Source: an uncultured beta proteobacterium
Lineage (GTDB): Bacteria > Pseudomonadota > Gammaproteobacteria > Burkholderiales > SG8-41
Direction: 5' to 3'
NCBI GenBank assembly: GCA_903885665.1
Contig: CAISJL010000126.1
Coordinates: 36,260-100,259, forward strand
DNA: 64,000 bases
The position numbers and the translations under genes were made by a program. Under the pieces are notes generated by a model. The model worked only from the letters and a program-made list of their open reading frames with translations. It was not told the DNA's origin and did no database searches. Shown piece by piece: positions 3,528 through 19,266 of the stretch (position 1 is the first letter of the stretch; every line of letters starts with the position of its first letter).

Positions 3528-4138
3528 CCCCCTTTATTTCACTCAACGCAGTTGCCGTGCCCTTTGACATGGCCAATGTCGATACCGATCGGATTATTCC
3601 TGTGCGTTTTTTACGCAAACTACGCGACCTTGCGCATAGCTATGAAGGCTACTTATTTCATGACATGCGGTTTGATCCGACAGGTGCAGAGCGGCCCGAA
3701 TTTATACTCAACCAAACCCCATGGCGACAAGCGGGTATTTTGGTGGCAGATACTAACTTTGGTTGCGGCTCCTCGCGCGAAGGTGCGGTCTACGCGCTAC
3801 TCGACTACGGTATTCGCGCGGTGATAGCACCTTCATTTGGTGATATTCACTACGCCAATGAACTCCAAAATGGCATGCTGCCCGTGACACTCCCCGATGA
3901 GATTTGTAATCATTTACGCGCGCAACTCCACGCGCAACCGGGTGCGCATTTACAGATCGATCTACCCACCCAAATTGTTACCGATACCGATGGCGAGACC
4001 CACCCCTTCATGATAGATCCAGTCTACAAAGAGCGTTTGTTACAAGGTTTAGATGATGTAGGTTTGGTATTAGCGCAAAACTCACAGATCGAAGCCTTCG
4101 AACAAGCGTATCATCGCCAACACCCATGGCTTGCTTAA
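3524..4138 (+). CDS. Aconitase-superfamily small subunit (LeuD/DmdB-like)
   Basis: 'NVDTDRIIPVRFL', 'NFGCGSSREGAVYAL' and 'VIAPSFGDIHYANELQNGMLPV'; ATGA overlap with the upstream large subunit. Confidence 0.9.
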   Translation: MTPFISLNAVAVPFDMANVDTDRIIPVRFLRKLRDLAHSYEGYLFHDMRFDPTGAERPEFILNQTPWRQAGILVADTNFGCGSSREGAVYALLDYGIRAVIAPSFGDIHYANELQNGMLPVTLPDEICNHLRAQLHAQPGAHLQIDLPTQIVTDTDGETHPFMIDPVYKERLLQGLDDVGLVLAQNSQIEAFEQAYHRQHPWLA

Positions 4139-4193
4139 ATTTTACGGATCGACTTAAACCCTTGAAACGCCCTCGACTCGCGCGCCGGACATC

Positions 4194-5159
4194 ATGATTG
4201 TCAATAGTGTTGCCTATCAACAAGGGCGCGTCGTCGCACGAGTCGCCAGTCAAGATATTCACGACTATCTAGGACACGCGGACTACATCGTGTGGGTGGC
4301 CGTGCGCGACCCCGACCATGCCGAACTCGAACAATTAAAACAAGAATTTAATCTGCAACCCCTAGCGGTTGAAGATGCCTTGCACGGCCATCAGCGGCCC
4401 AAGTTCGAAGAGTATTCAGACTCACTGTTTTTTGTGATTCATACCGTAGAGATTGATGGCGAAGAATTGCGCATTGGTGAAATTAATATTTTTGTCACCG
4501 CGCGCTATGTCTTAACTATTCGCAAAAATAGCGATCGCAATCTCACCGAAGTGCGCACGCGCTGCGAGAACGAACCTACCCATATGCAGTATGGTACAGG
4601 CTATATTTTGTATGCCTTAATGGATGCGATTGTTGATCGTTACTTTCCGATTATTGATGGTATTGCCTCACAACTCGAGCACATTGAAGATCGTATTTTC
4701 GCTGGCGAATCGGCACGTCAAAACATTGAGTCCTTGTATTATCTCAAACAACAATTAGTCACACTCAAGCACGCGACCGCGCCACTACTCGAAGCGATAG
4801 GCAAACTCTACGGCGGACGCGTGCCGGCGGTGTGCGCCGGTTTGGACGATTATTTTCGTGATGTCGCTGACCACCTAGTGCGCATTAACCAACTCATCGA
4901 TGCTACACGGGACATGGTGGCTACCGCCATTTCAGTGAGCTTAGCCATGATTACCGTACAAGATACCGAAGTCACCAAACAACTGGCTGGCTACGGCGCG
5001 CTGGTCGCAGTGCCGACCATGATTGCCGGCATCTATGGCATGAACTTTCAACATATGCCTGAACTGAGCTGGACTTGGGGCTATCCGATGGCGGTGCTCA
5101 GCATGGTGATCATTGACCTCTATTTATTTTATCGGTTTCGCAAGTCGCGGTGGCTATAG
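4194..5159 (+). CDS. corA: CorA-like magnesium/cobalt transporter
   Basis: C-terminal 'YGMNFQHMPELSWTWGYPMAV' holds the YGMNF signature between two TM helices. Confidence 0.92.
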   Translation: MIVNSVAYQQGRVVARVASQDIHDYLGHADYIVWVAVRDPDHAELEQLKQEFNLQPLAVEDALHGHQRPKFEEYSDSLFFVIHTVEIDGEELRIGEINIFVTARYVLTIRKNSDRNLTEVRTRCENEPTHMQYGTGYILYALMDAIVDRYFPIIDGIASQLEHIEDRIFAGESARQNIESLYYLKQQLVTLKHATAPLLEAIGKLYGGRVPAVCAGLDDYFRDVADHLVRINQLIDATRDMVATAISVSLAMITVQDTEVTKQLAGYGALVAVPTMIAGIYGMNFQHMPELSWTWGYPMAVLSMVIIDLYLFYRFRKSRWL

Positions 5160-13466: not shown

Positions 13467-13761
13467 GCGCATGACGATTCCATTACATACTGTGATGATA
13501 TTGTCATTAAATGATCAGTATCGCTGCGACACCCCAGCCCTAAAGTTCTAAGTACTACGGTCGATCCTCTACAATGCGCATTTATTTAATATGCATTGCA
13601 TTGCGCCCGTACGTGGGCTTTGCACTAGTGGGCTTTGGTTTTTTAATTTTTTTAATTTTCTTAATTTTTGCATAGCGTTTTTATCTCTTTTTATCTCATT
13701 CCTATCGAGTTTTTATCAAGTTTTTATCGCATTACTGCCTAATCCATTACCGAGAGCGTTC

Positions 13762-15213
13762 ATGAGTAAATCTACTGCGCCCATACCTAGCCCTGCCACC
13801 GTCGCCAGCCACTATGACTACGATTTAATTGTGATCGGGTCTGGCCCATCCGGACAACGCGCCGCAATTCAAGCCGCCAAGCTTGGCAAACAGGTCGCCA
13901 TCATCGAGCGTTGTCGCACCATTGGTGGCGTCTGTGTCAACACCGGTACCATTCCCTCTAAAACATTTCGTGAAGCCGTATTACATTTATCTGGGTTTCG
14001 CGAGCGCGGGATTTACGGCTCGGCTTATCGCGTTAAGCAAGACATCACCATTGATGATTTGCTCTACCGCGTGCAGCAAGTGATCCGCTCCGAAGTCGAC
14101 GTCATTCGCAATCACATGGCGCGTAATCGCGTCGATCTGATTGAGGCGATCGCTAGTTTTATTGACCCCCATACCATTGATTTAGTCTCTGCCACCGGCC
14201 ACGGGCGACGTCAAATATCGGGCGAAAAAATTATTATTGCTTGCGGTACTGAAGCGGCTAAAGACGGTCATATTCCGTTTGATGGCCAGCATATTTTCAC
14301 TAGTGATGATGTGCTCGGCTTACAGCAAATTCCGCGCTCTATCATTGTCGTGGGTGCAGGGGTCATTGGGGTCGAATACGCCACCATGTTCGCAGCCTTA
14401 GGTGTGCGCGTCACCATCGTCGACAAGCGTCCCGTGCTACTGCCATTTCTTGATCATGAAATCTCCGCAGCGCTCACCTATGTTGCGCAACAAAACAACG
14501 TGACCATGCGCTTAGGTGAAGAAGTCGCCGAAGTCAAACTCATTGCTCACGCCAGCAAACCCTGTGAAGTGAGCTTGAAAAGTGGCAAGGTCTTACATGC
14601 CGATGCCGTGCTCTATTCGATAGGCCGCGTGGGCGCCACCGAACAACTCGCACTCGATCTCGCTCAAGTACATGCTGATGACCGCCGTCGAATTACTGTC
14701 AATGCGCACTTCCAAACCAATGTTGAACATATCTATGCCGTAGGGGATGTCATCGGCTTCCCGTCGCTGGCGTCTACCTCTTACGAACAAGGACGGGCAG
14801 CAGCGCGTCACGCCTTTGGTGTGCAAGAAGATCACGCGATTGGCATTGGCGTATTTCCCTATGGGATTTATACAGTACCTGAAATCTCCACTATTGGTAA
14901 AAATGAAGATGAGCTCACGGCCGCTGGTATCCCCTATGAAATTGGCAAAGCCAATTATCGCGAAATTGCGCGCGGTCAGATTATTGGTGATCGAACCGGA
15001 GTTTTAAAATTAATTTTTAGCCCTGTCGATAAACGACTGCTAGCAGTACATATTTTGGGAGAAGGTGCTAGCGAGCTCATTCACATTGGCCAAGCAGTCA
15101 TGGCTCACAATGGTACGATTGATTATTTTGCAGATGCGGTATTTAACTACCCAACATTGGCTGAATGTTATAAGTCTGCGGCACTAGATGGTTTGAACCG
15201 ACTGCAATATTAA
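13762..15213 (+). CDS. sthA: Soluble pyridine nucleotide transhydrogenase (Si-specific NAD(P)+ transhydrogenase)
   Basis: 'YDLIVIGSGPSGQRAAIQAAKLGKQVAIIERCRTIGGVCVNTGTIPSKTFREAVL'; the redox Cys pair is replaced (CVNTGT), as in SthA. Start corrected from 13591; the upstream extension is low-complexity poly-T. Confidence 0.92.
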   Translation: MSKSTAPIPSPATVASHYDYDLIVIGSGPSGQRAAIQAAKLGKQVAIIERCRTIGGVCVNTGTIPSKTFREAVLHLSGFRERGIYGSAYRVKQDITIDDLLYRVQQVIRSEVDVIRNHMARNRVDLIEAIASFIDPHTIDLVSATGHGRRQISGEKIIIACGTEAAKDGHIPFDGQHIFTSDDVLGLQQIPRSIIVVGAGVIGVEYATMFAALGVRVTIVDKRPVLLPFLDHEISAALTYVAQQNNVTMRLGEEVAEVKLIAHASKPCEVSLKSGKVLHADAVLYSIGRVGATEQLALDLAQVHADDRRRITVNAHFQTNVEHIYAVGDVIGFPSLASTSYEQGRAAARHAFGVQEDHAIGIGVFPYGIYTVPEISTIGKNEDELTAAGIPYEIGKANYREIARGQIIGDRTGVLKLIFSPVDKRLLAVHILGEGASELIHIGQAVMAHNGTIDYFADAVFNYPTLAECYKSAALDGLNRLQY

Positions 15214-15316: not shown

Positions 15317-16903
15317 CTATCCACGATTCATCTGTTCCCAAATCGCTTTTTCTAACGCTGTTGCACGGCCTTCTTGAGCAAAAATCTGCGATACCGTGTC
15401 ACGGTCACCGGCCGCAATAATTTGCCGCAAATGACCAATAGTGGCTCTAAACTCTTCAAACGCTACCTCAGGATGTTCAGCAATCGACTTGATCGGTAAG
15501 TGTCCAATTTCTGCGGCTCGCCGCTCATTCTTGGCTTTTTCAACTAAGGTATCAATTTCAGCTTGGGAAATATGCAATCTAGAGGCGACTTCTTGAATTT
15601 TGACCATTTCATCATCGTCAATGACCCCGTCTTCCATATACACATAGAGCTCTGCACGCATCGCTTCACGCTCTTTGTGCAGTTGGTCATTAAATGCTGA
15701 AGCCAAAATAGCCGCAGGCACCGCAAAAATACCAATCCCCACCAAGGCCATGATACTCGTCATCAAGCGGCCTATTGGTGTTATTGGTGAAATATCACCA
15801 TAACCTACAGACGCTAAGGTGACCACCGCCCAGTAAATCGATTGTGGAATATTTTCAAACTTTTCGGGCTGTGCTTCATGTTCAAACAAATAGCCCAAGC
15901 TGGCCATCAAAATTACCATCAACAACATGATAAAGGTTGAGGCTGCAATCACTGGCCATTCACGCTGGAGTGCTTTGAGCAAGGTACCTGTGGCTTTACT
16001 CTGACGGGTCAATTTCAATAAGCGCATCAATCGGAATATCCGCAAGAAACGCAAGTCAAACAAGTGTTGCAACAATGCTTCTAGGTAGAACGGCACAACC
16101 GCTAAAAAGTCAATGACTGCCAAGGGGCTGCGGGCGTAGCGGAAGCGACCAAAAAACGCACCTGCATTACCCGGTCCTTCAACACATGAATATATCCGCG
16201 CAAAGTATTCAACCGTAAATACTGCCACCGCGACCGCATCGAGCACAATAAACTCAATATTTAAGTGATAGTGTACAGATTCAACCGATTCCATAATTAC
16301 CGCTAGCACCGAGATCAACACCCACCAGACGACAAAGTTGTCAACCATTTCATGCAACTGACCGCTGGTGTCGGTTGTATGAAACAAGGCATAGACTTGT
16401 TGGCGGAAAGTGCGGCCTTTGTTCAGCTTACGAAACTCTTGAATCGCCGGCACTAATACACGCAACAACTTTAACAGTCTTAATAGCCGAAGAGCTCGCA
16501 ATACCCGCAAGTCGAGGTTGACGCCAATAAACTGCAAATAAAACGGCAATATAGCTACCAAATCGATCAACGCAAACGGGCTAAATATATAACTCAAACG
16601 CGGTAGCTTGCGGCCCTTAAACTCTTCGTCTTCTGGCGCCGTATAAAACCGCAACACATATTCAATGGAAAACACAACCAAAGAAAATACATCAAAGAAA
16701 TGAAACAAGGACTTATAAGGCTGGAATACAACATCAATATTCTCAACAATCAAGGCCACCAAATTGGCAACGATCAAGATCGAAATAAAATTTTCGGTCG
16801 ATTTGGCGTAGTTATCATCTAAGTTGGTATTAAATAACCAACGATATATAAAACGTCGCACCTTGTTAGCTTGGGGGGGGGTAGTAGATTGGGTTTCAGT
16901 CAC
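15317..16903 (-). CDS. Voltage-gated ion channel with tandem voltage-sensor domains and one K+-type pore
   Basis: Two S1-S4-like units ('PFALIDLVAILPFYL..LRVLRALRLLRLLKLLRVL' and 'PLAVIDFLAVVPFYL..LRFLRIFRLMRLLKLTR') followed by one pore with filter 'TLASVGYGD'. Confidence 0.9.
   Translation of the reverse strand: MTETQSTTPPQANKVRRFIYRWLFNTNLDDNYAKSTENFISILIVANLVALIVENIDVVFQPYKSLFHFFDVFSLVVFSIEYVLRFYTAPEDEEFKGRKLPRLSYIFSPFALIDLVAILPFYLQFIGVNLDLRVLRALRLLRLLKLLRVLVPAIQEFRKLNKGRTFRQQVYALFHTTDTSGQLHEMVDNFVVWWVLISVLAVIMESVESVHYHLNIEFIVLDAVAVAVFTVEYFARIYSCVEGPGNAGAFFGRFRYARSPLAVIDFLAVVPFYLEALLQHLFDLRFLRIFRLMRLLKLTRQSKATGTLLKALQREWPVIAASTFIMLLMVILMASLGYLFEHEAQPEKFENIPQSIYWAVVTLASVGYGDISPITPIGRLMTSIMALVGIGIFAVPAAILASAFNDQLHKEREAMRAELYVYMEDGVIDDDEMVKIQEVASRLHISQAEIDTLVEKAKNERRAAEIGHLPIKSIAEHPEVAFEEFRATIGHLRQIIAAGDRDTVSQIFAQEGRATALEKAIWEQMNRG
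16873..16881 (-). repeat. Homopolymeric G9 (C9 on the coding strand) tract near the channel gene start
   Basis: ttggggggggg on +; coding strand ACTACCCCCCCCCAAGCT = T T P P Q. Confidence 0.85.
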
Positions 16904-16928: not shown

Positions 16929-17501
16929 TCAGAACTTCAATTCAGCAATTTTGATCACACTAAATCCGCGGCCACACACAACGACGCGTAGATTTAACTC
17001 TTGATTGACGGCCTCATCCGTTTCCATAGCAGCAAACGTGAGCGCGCTTGGGTCTGTTGGCTTCGGTGTGCCTTTTTCCACAATAATTGCACCATGCGTA
17101 TTCAACTGTTCGCGATCGCACTTCGGTGAAAAAATCAAACCCTCCTTCTCGGCCACATTCTTGATGTTGGCCAATGGCGCGCCAGGAGCGACTACTGCCA
17201 TTAGACAGTCTTGCAACATTGCCTCGCTGTCTTTACGGCAGCTCTCCAGCGCCACTTCTTTACCTTCGGCGCGCGCCTTGCCAGTTTCTTCAAGCCACTT
17301 AACCAATTGCTCAGCGTTGCTTTTAGTGTGTTCGGTCTCTGAGCCCTCTTTAAACGTGGTATAGCCCAAATTCACCACTAAACCTAATACGATTAATAAC
17401 AAAATAACAAAGACTGCATCATATTTGGTGAAATACGGTTGTGCTGCGGCAGCACTGTGTTGATCATCCGACTGATTTTGTGTAGACACTACAACCTCCA
17501 A
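16929..17501 (-). CDS. Single-TM membrane protein of unknown function upstream of the ion channel gene
   Basis: 'YDAVFVILLLIVLGLVVNLGYTTF' TM segment plus a ~130-aa soluble domain containing Cys; same strand, 25 bp before the channel start. Confidence 0.75.
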   Translation of the reverse strand: MEVVVSTQNQSDDQHSAAAAQPYFTKYDAVFVILLLIVLGLVVNLGYTTFKEGSETEHTKSNAEQLVKWLEETGKARAEGKEVALESCRKDSEAMLQDCLMAVVAPGAPLANIKNVAEKEGLIFSPKCDREQLNTHGAIIVEKGTPKPTDPSALTFAAMETDEAVNQELNLRVVVCGRGFSVIKIAELKF

Positions 17502-17743
17502 AACGATTCATCTCGCACAAGAGCGCCTTGTGCACGCCTGCAGAGCAATACACTCTGCATCCATACTTTTGTCTTGCATAGCACGCGCTACTTCACCGCA
17601 TCGTGCAGGTCATCAGTCAAAGCGATAGCATTCGTTAATTAGCAAAGACAGTAACAATAACAATCACTATTAAATGACTATGTGTTGAATGATGAATAGT
17701 TGAACAACATTTAATAAAGATAATAAATACTATGAATACAATT

Positions 17744-17790
17744 AATACTTTACTGCGGTAATCACTGAATTAAGGTGATGTTAAAGTATT
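17744..17790. repeat. Nested inverted repeat in AT-rich intergenic region
   Basis: AATACTTTA (17744-17752)...ATCAC (17761-17765)...GTGAT (17775-17779)...TAAAGTATT (17782-17790). Confidence 0.6.
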
Positions 17791-18057
17791 AAACCAATGA
17801 TTTGTTTCATATTAATGATTAATTATCTTCGCGAAGTTCCAATATTACTCGATTTTTTTTGAGTTTTCCGTTTTTTTTACAATTGAGCGGATATTTATTT
17901 TAAAAACAAAATAAAACAAGCCGTTAATTAACTGATCGCTTGTATTTAATGTTGATACTGAACGCTTCTCAAAAATATAACTCTCTGATTTTATTATTAA
18001 ATATTTTTGCTGCACTCGCGCAAAGTAGTCACGCAGTGCGCTGCCTGCGTAAGCTCA

Positions 18058-19266
18058 TCACCACGCCGCTTCTAATGTGGCCATGATTCGATCACGCTCC
18101 GCTAAAAACTCGCGTTGCGGATCGGCATTAAAGTTTCTCAGTGAATGTTCCAAAATCTGCGGCAAGCTATCGCGGGGAATGTTGACATCACGCAAGCGCG
18201 TGGGCATACCCATACCGGCAAACGCCTGCTCAATCGCTTGTGCTGCATTCAAGTGTGGCGTATCACCCTCCGCACAATCAAAAGCTGCAGCAATCAACCG
18301 CATTGCTTCTGGATCACGCCCACCAAATTGGCGAACCACGGTTGCAGTAAGTGCTGAGTTAGCCTCGCCTTGGCCCACATGCGCATGCAAATTAAATAAC
18401 GCCGTGGCCAGTGCATAAGTCACCCGCGCAGGCCAATGCTTCTCAGTGAGAGTGCCGCCATCATCGGCGTCGCGATTTTGTAAAAACGCTGCGGCACATA
18501 AATGAATCCGCGCCTCAGCATCTTGCGGGTTGGCCACACGCGGAATAGCGCGTTGCGCTAAACGAAACGACTGCAAACGATCGCCCTCAGATAAAGGCCC
18601 CATACGGGGCGCGCCCAGATTCATTAAGGCACGCCAAAATACTGATGCTGCAGTCGTGCGCGCCAACGAGACTGGCGCCGTCAACACCGCATCCGCATCC
18701 CAAAACAATGCGACCGGTCGCGTTTTAGGATCAAAAAACTCCATACGATGATTACGATTTGGGTCTTTCACGCCAGAACCAGCGCGATTTTGAGCCGTGG
18801 TAGCTGCAGTCAATACATTGACAATCGGTAACTTAGGCGCCATCAGTCGCGGACTAATCGCCGGGCCTTTAGCAGGATATTGTGTAATTAATTGATCCAC
18901 TGGTCTGGACTCCGCCATCAAAATGGCAACCACCCGCGTGCCTTGAATCACACTACCCGAACCCACGCCGATTAATAAATCTGCCTGCACAGCGCTTGCA
19001 GCTGCAGCTGCGGCTTGTACCGACGTCAGCGTGGTGTCTTTATCAATTTCATCATACACACCGACACACTGCGCGCCGAGTATGCGTTGAATACGCGCGA
19101 TCAAATCGGTTTTGCGCGACACACTTCGGCCACATACAATAAATGCACGACTTGTTTGTTGGCGTTTGAGCTCTGCTGGCAATTGCTCCAGAGCATCTTG
19201 ACCGCTATATAAGCGTAATGGATAACTGATGGCCCGAAAATCGGTGACGGCAGCGTTTACTGACAT
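18058..19266 (-). CDS. Iron-containing alcohol dehydrogenase-fold protein with apparently degenerate metal site
   Basis: N-terminal 'AFIVCGRSVSRKTDLIARI', 'LLIGVGSGSVIQGTRVVAIL', 'PKLPIVNVLTAATTAQNRAGSGVKD' is Fe-ADH-like; the expected Asp/His ligand positions are not conserved. Confidence 0.75.
   Translation of the reverse strand: MSVNAAVTDFRAISYPLRLYSGQDALEQLPAELKRQQTSRAFIVCGRSVSRKTDLIARIQRILGAQCVGVYDEIDKDTTLTSVQAAAAAASAVQADLLIGVGSGSVIQGTRVVAILMAESRPVDQLITQYPAKGPAISPRLMAPKLPIVNVLTAATTAQNRAGSGVKDPNRNHRMEFFDPKTRPVALFWDADAVLTAPVSLARTTAASVFWRALMNLGAPRMGPLSEGDRLQSFRLAQRAIPRVANPQDAEARIHLCAAAFLQNRDADDGGTLTEKHWPARVTYALATALFNLHAHVGQGEANSALTATVVRQFGGRDPEAMRLIAAAFDCAEGDTPHLNAAQAIEQAFAGMGMPTRLRDVNIPRDSLPQILEHSLRNFNADPQREFLAERDRIMATLEAAW

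Follow-up and report, generated by a model that had tools for sequence, protein, structure and literature searches.

We show that the window, the whole 64,000-nucleotide stretch of DNA analysed here, encodes a channel in which two tandem voltage-sensor domains (VSDs) precede a single K+-type pore. Family alignment, selection, structure prediction and ~50 relatives support the 4TM+6TM (VSD-VSD-pore) architecture inferred in the earlier note on this DNA, with a first sensor that lacks a pore of its own; this sensor shows no sign of degeneration. The gene is genetically linked to a second one, C1, encoding a single-pass membrane protein. On balance, we lean towards a K+-selective voltage-gated tetramer with two complete sensors per subunit (eight per pore) and C1 as accessory protein. 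The relevant features of the window are:

15317..16903, minus strand: gene for the tandem-VSD channel of K+ type, encoding 528 aa from a GTG codon at 16903
16448..16807, minus strand: VSD1 (residues 33-152), S1-S4; S4 residues R133, R136, R139, R142, K145 and R148; FxxE residues F78 and E81; S3 D114
16364..16447, minus strand: VSD1-VSD2 linker (residues 153-180), carrying the pre-S1 helix NKGRTFRQQVYALF
15998..16363, minus strand: VSD2 (residues 181-302); S4 residues R285, R288, R291, R294, K297 and R300; F229/E232; D265
15689..15997, minus strand: pore domain (residues 303-405), consisting of S4-S5 linker, S5, pore helix and S6
15794..15820, minus strand: selectivity filter TLASVGYGD (residues 362-370), unchanged in all but one of 49 aligned relatives
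15518..15676, minus strand: TerB-like cytoplasmic helical domain (residues 410-462), PF05099 E = 0.021
15320..15517, minus strand: C-terminal helical tail (residues 463-528), also found in single-VSD twins
16929..17501, minus strand: partner gene C1, 190 aa, single-pass membrane protein, candidate accessory subunit

The open reading frame, the length of its product and all motifs quoted in the earlier note were confirmed; the minus strand is a correction to it. Besides the strand, that note lacked the linked upstream C1 gene, the identity of the tail and the existence of a conserved family. Hydropathy analysis revealed ten membrane segments plus a pore helix, arranged 4 + 6, with S1-S4 peaks at residues 42-152 and again at 186-299 and S5-P-S6 at 318-401. 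Using Pfam, we detected Ion_trans in two stretches and Ion_trans_2 once, over the pore (E = 8.5e-18). An AlphaFold monomer built with 37 relatives had four helices in each sensor (pLDDT ~80–90). The pore with its filter follows only the second S1-S4 block; the finding that would have refuted the claim, a first block that is not a four-helix sensor, did not emerge. The pore was weakly modelled (pLDDT < 50 for residues 348-374), and the model gave no VSD1–VSD2 contact and no tetramer. Its fold matched structures of Kv4.2, Kv1 and KCNQ (E down to 4e-9). The linker of 30 residues that follows S4 of VSD1 has no hydrophobic segment, which excludes a hidden first pore.

The C-terminus had been described as an acidic helical domain. 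Its TerB-like character had been missed, although the match is weak in the window protein itself: PF05099 scored 15.6 bits there, below the Pfam gathering cut-off of 24.4 bits, and 27.8 bits in the family member L100. This tail may assemble or modulate the channel. Since ordinary relatives have it too, it leaves the extra sensor unexplained.

VSD1 and VSD2 are 34% identical across 131 aa (E = 1e-21). With VSD1 alone as query, the matches in the PDB included voltage sensors of Kv7/KCNQ (E = 7e-7) and of other Kv channels. Hv1 is a VSD-only proton channel with an Asp in the middle of S1, and its existence raises the question of whether VSD1 might itself be a permeation path, for a proton or gating-pore current. 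We regard this as very improbable: VSD1 conforms to the Kv type in having a complete S4, KCNQ sensors are the best of its relatives with solved structures, it lacks the mid-S1 Asp, and, as a further departure from the Hv1 type, a pore domain follows later in the same chain.

To assess whether the two sensors are retained, we counted key residues in 49 aligned family members. In VSD1, the six basic residues of S4, the Phe and Glu of S2 (FxxE), the Glu of S1 and the Asp of S3 were present in 47 to 49 members; the same set was present in VSD2 in 48 to 49. Both charge sets are under purifying selection, the median pairwise dN/dS among close relatives being 0.050 for VSD1, 0.063 for VSD2 and 0.000 for S4 of VSD1 alone; for the pore, pairwise dN/dS was ~0.02. 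Judged by sequence, both sensors look functional; the pattern fits that of a sensor in use and is no proof that S4 moves. The homology of VSD1 to VSD2 could also be what a recent or decaying, functionless duplicate leaves behind. This explanation is barely credible given the conservation across ~50 loci, the strong purifying selection and the separate grouping of VSD1 and VSD2 in a tree of VSDs. There, all VSD1 sequences except that of a divergent Gemmobacter member clustered (support 90/98, below the level starred by the tool), as did the VSD2 sequences, with the following single-VSD twins from Burkholderiales at the base of the VSD2 group:

L151:16334-17512: single-VSD twin
L153:2541-3734: single-VSD twin
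L154:943-2148: single-VSD twin

The separate groups indicate that the layout is old within the tandem family. The tree had too few columns to choose between a duplication of VSD2 and the fusion of another VSD as the origin of VSD1. The Gemmobacter member has fewer VSD1 charges than the rest of the family. One metagenome-assembled copy (L098:5932-7386) has lost ~60 residues in frame, which leaves its VSD1 without S3 and with little of S4, and has an intact C1; this is either a natural variant or an assembly error.

In the window, C1 lies 25 bp upstream of the channel gene. A C1 homologue immediately precedes the tandem channel in 42 loci, the gaps being mostly −4 to +12 bp, and the two genes are probably co-transcribed. 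In a separate, independent set of 399 Burkholderiales genomes, a full-length tandem channel was found in four, and C1 was found in the same four, adjacent every time. The probability of this by chance is ~1e-9 if the genomes are independent; two of the four belong to one genus. C1 did not adjoin the tandem channel at four loci (L087, L090, L096 and L099), and the assemblies of L087 and L090 each contain another tandem copy that has C1. Nor was C1 found with the divergent Gemmobacter member. The single-VSD twins have the pre-S1 segment, the pore and the whole C-terminal tail in common with the tandem channel and differ from it in having neither VSD1 nor an adjacent C1, as seen for those in the genomes G736, G762 and G640. 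Hence C1 tracks the VSD1-bearing form and not the pore. From this we infer that C1 is an accessory subunit tied to that form; no binding has been shown.

C1 has one membrane helix followed by a C-terminal α/β domain of ~100 residues, with four conserved cysteines (88, 99, 128 and 176); the cysteine-containing domain is inferred to be, probably, periplasmic. No accepted match to C1 was obtained in Pfam, NCBIfam, PHROG or PDB. A long N-terminal helix and a four-stranded sheet hinted at a pilin-like protein, an assignment that we do not claim because a Foldseek comparison of the model (pLDDT 90) with the PDB yielded nothing at E ≤ 0.001.

The association with C1 also bears on a different role for VSD1. 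It could be a structural or docking module, serving assembly, membrane placement or the binding of C1 or of a partner channel, without sensing voltage for pore gating. Only VSD2 has a direct S4-S5 link to the pore, C1 follows the VSD1-bearing form, and the L098 copy retains C1 without part of VSD1, all as a docking module would have it. Mere docking does not, however, require six S4 charges and a full charge-transfer centre in 47 to 49 of 49 members, nor does it account for a median dN/dS of 0 in S4. We therefore consider a purely structural VSD1 somewhat unlikely and favour VSD1 as a working sensor.

How does the tandem channel relate to known channels? With 6TM channels of the Kv type (bacterial 'ion transporter'/Ion_trans proteins, including KvAP-like ones, and animal Kv1, Kv4 and KCNQ) it shares the VSD2–S4-S5 linker–pore unit, the GYGD filter, six S4 charges, and matches in sequence and fold. 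The Arg/Lys residues of S4, the FxxE motif, the S3 Asp and the filter T-x-x-S/T-V-G-Y-G-D that define this type are all present, whereas the rule of one VSD per pore subunit is broken by an extra, complete and pore-less N-terminal VSD; the linked single-pass partner gene is a further difference. Two-pore channels (TPC) and the four-domain Nav, Cav and NALCN channels likewise have multiple VSDs per chain, but these are 6TM repeats in which each VSD has its half or quarter of a pore. VSD1 has none, and the tandem channel does not qualify as a TPC, which requires a pore domain in both of its 6TM units. TOK1, the yeast 8TM K+ channel (PMC12332018), is also a K+ channel with a non-standard number of modules; it adds a second pore (6+2), whereas the tandem channel adds a second sensor (4+6). 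The modularity of K+ channels was reviewed in 2025, and the passages concerned describe 2TM, 4TM, 6TM, 8TM (yeast) and 24TM architectures without a 4+6 layout (PMC12332018). In line with the earlier suggestion that the architecture is unusual, we found no description of the family, of a 4+6 TM K+ channel or of tandem or duplicated VSDs in the open-access papers searched. The search did not extend to eukaryotic sequence collections, and the negative result is only absence of evidence. For C1, KCNE and the Kv and Nav β subunits offer an analogy as small single-pass partners of voltage-gated channels; no relation in sequence or fold was found, and binding by C1 has not been shown.

The tandem protein might act mainly as a subunit of heteromers with neighbouring single-VSD channels. 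Several loci have one or two co-oriented single-VSD channels directly downstream, some with overlaps of 4 bp or less, and one has such a channel immediately upstream of C1. At most loci, and in the window too, the pair has no other channel gene next to it, which means that the tandem protein must in many cases work without a neighbouring partner. Heteromers as its main state are, in our opinion, clearly unlikely.

The neighbourhoods were diverse. One or two single-VSD channels lie directly 3′ of the tandem channel in L055, L057, L058, L059, L061, L062, L064 and L066. Their filters, TITSGYGN and TIVSGWGN, are unusual in that they end in Asn and have one residue fewer than TLASVGYGD. Two of them occur at each of L057:7678-9551, L058:7685-9535, L061:5620-7463, L064:7672-9521 and L066:7656-9508, the genes overlapping or lying close together in a three-channel operon. 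At L155:2476-5509, C1 stands between an ordinary single-VSD channel (TLTTVGYGD) and the tandem channel, all three arranged head to tail and probably forming one operon. Two bacterial voltage-gated sodium-type channels with the filter TLESWS lie in divergent orientation beside C1 and the tandem channel, which places sodium- and potassium-type channels next to each other, at L063:1695-2585 and 4065-4973 and at L073:1794-2651 and 4057-4920; the one tested was NavAb-like (E ~1e-69). At L080:2-12723 and other Limnohabitans and Comamonadaceae loci, the pair is flanked on one side by an allantoate-hydrolase-type gene and a NitT/TauT-like ABC transporter and on the other by UreD and urtBCDE. This urea/purine cluster surrounds the pair at many Comamonadaceae loci and not elsewhere. 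We dropped a functional tie to urea or purine use because the window and other lineages have different neighbours.

The search for VSD-VSD-pore proteins that the earlier note had called for was made by scanning GTDB genomes with a VSD1-VSD2 alignment. It uncovered a conserved family instead of a single oddity, with ~48–50 contiguous VSD-VSD(-pore) loci. Nearly all hosts are freshwater Burkholderiales (Limnohabitans, Polynucleobacter and Comamonadaceae), among them the isolates Polynucleobacter hallstattensis, P. bastaniensis and Limnohabitans sp. MMS-10A-178. Another genus of the window organism's family has a relative that is 56% identical. The divergent Gemmobacter member (33% identity) is located on a plasmid of Gemmobacter aquarius and annotated just as 'ion transporter'. 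The distribution is patchy: 20 further genomes from the same genus as the window lacked the tandem channel, and when 299 genomes were sampled evenly across the phylum, the only full-length copy was that of the window genome. GC content drops from ~0.52 to 0.37–0.47 across the channel/C1 pair and the adjoining spacer. Together, the GC dip and the patchy distribution suggest that the pair in the window genome was acquired horizontally, which remains an inference. Transport as phage or plasmid cargo was rejected: there was no full-length phage match, and the only plasmid match was the Gemmobacter relative. One contig of a viral collection carries a partial copy of the tandem channel.

Just upstream of C1, the region 17201-18400 is AT-rich (GC 0.37–0.40), and no ORF of at least 80 aa lies wholly inside 17502-18057. 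The convergent neighbour at 13591-15213 is a Si-specific NAD(P)+ transhydrogenase of the sthA type. No such gene was detected at E ≤ 1e-100 in 20 genomes from the same genus as the window; its arrival together with the pair is therefore possible.

In the two-sensor channel that we favour, VSD2 would drive the gate via the usual S4-S5 linker, and VSD1 would be a second working sensor in cis. The short conserved linker is predicted to join S4 of VSD1 to the pre-S1 helix of VSD2, and by this connection movement of VSD1 could bias or delay VSD2 and the opening of the pore. In effect, the protein would be a two-stage voltage detector, and C1 would be its accessory subunit, associated with VSD1. In the absence of electrophysiology, K+ selectivity is inferred from the filter sequence and voltage dependence from the sensors; the movement of both S4s, the direction of coupling, the tetramer, the gating behaviour and the physical binding of C1 are inferences also. 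We raise only as a tentative possibility that this is a new class of K+ channel, in which eight sensors of two non-equivalent kinds control the pore. An accessory protein of unknown fold would be dedicated to the extra set, such that opening integrates voltage and an extracytoplasmic signal.

Known K+ channels vary in the number of pores and in their cytosolic modules; the tandem channel varies in the number of sensors. As a natural, conserved subunit with two sensors, it makes the effect of a second set on gating charge, cooperativity and steepness directly testable, for which engineered chimeras would otherwise be needed, and its hosts include culturable Polynucleobacter and Limnohabitans. 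If C1 binds, a voltage-gated K+ channel of bacteria would have an accessory subunit of its own. The conserved pairing of channel and C1 suggests a two-part voltage-gated channel.
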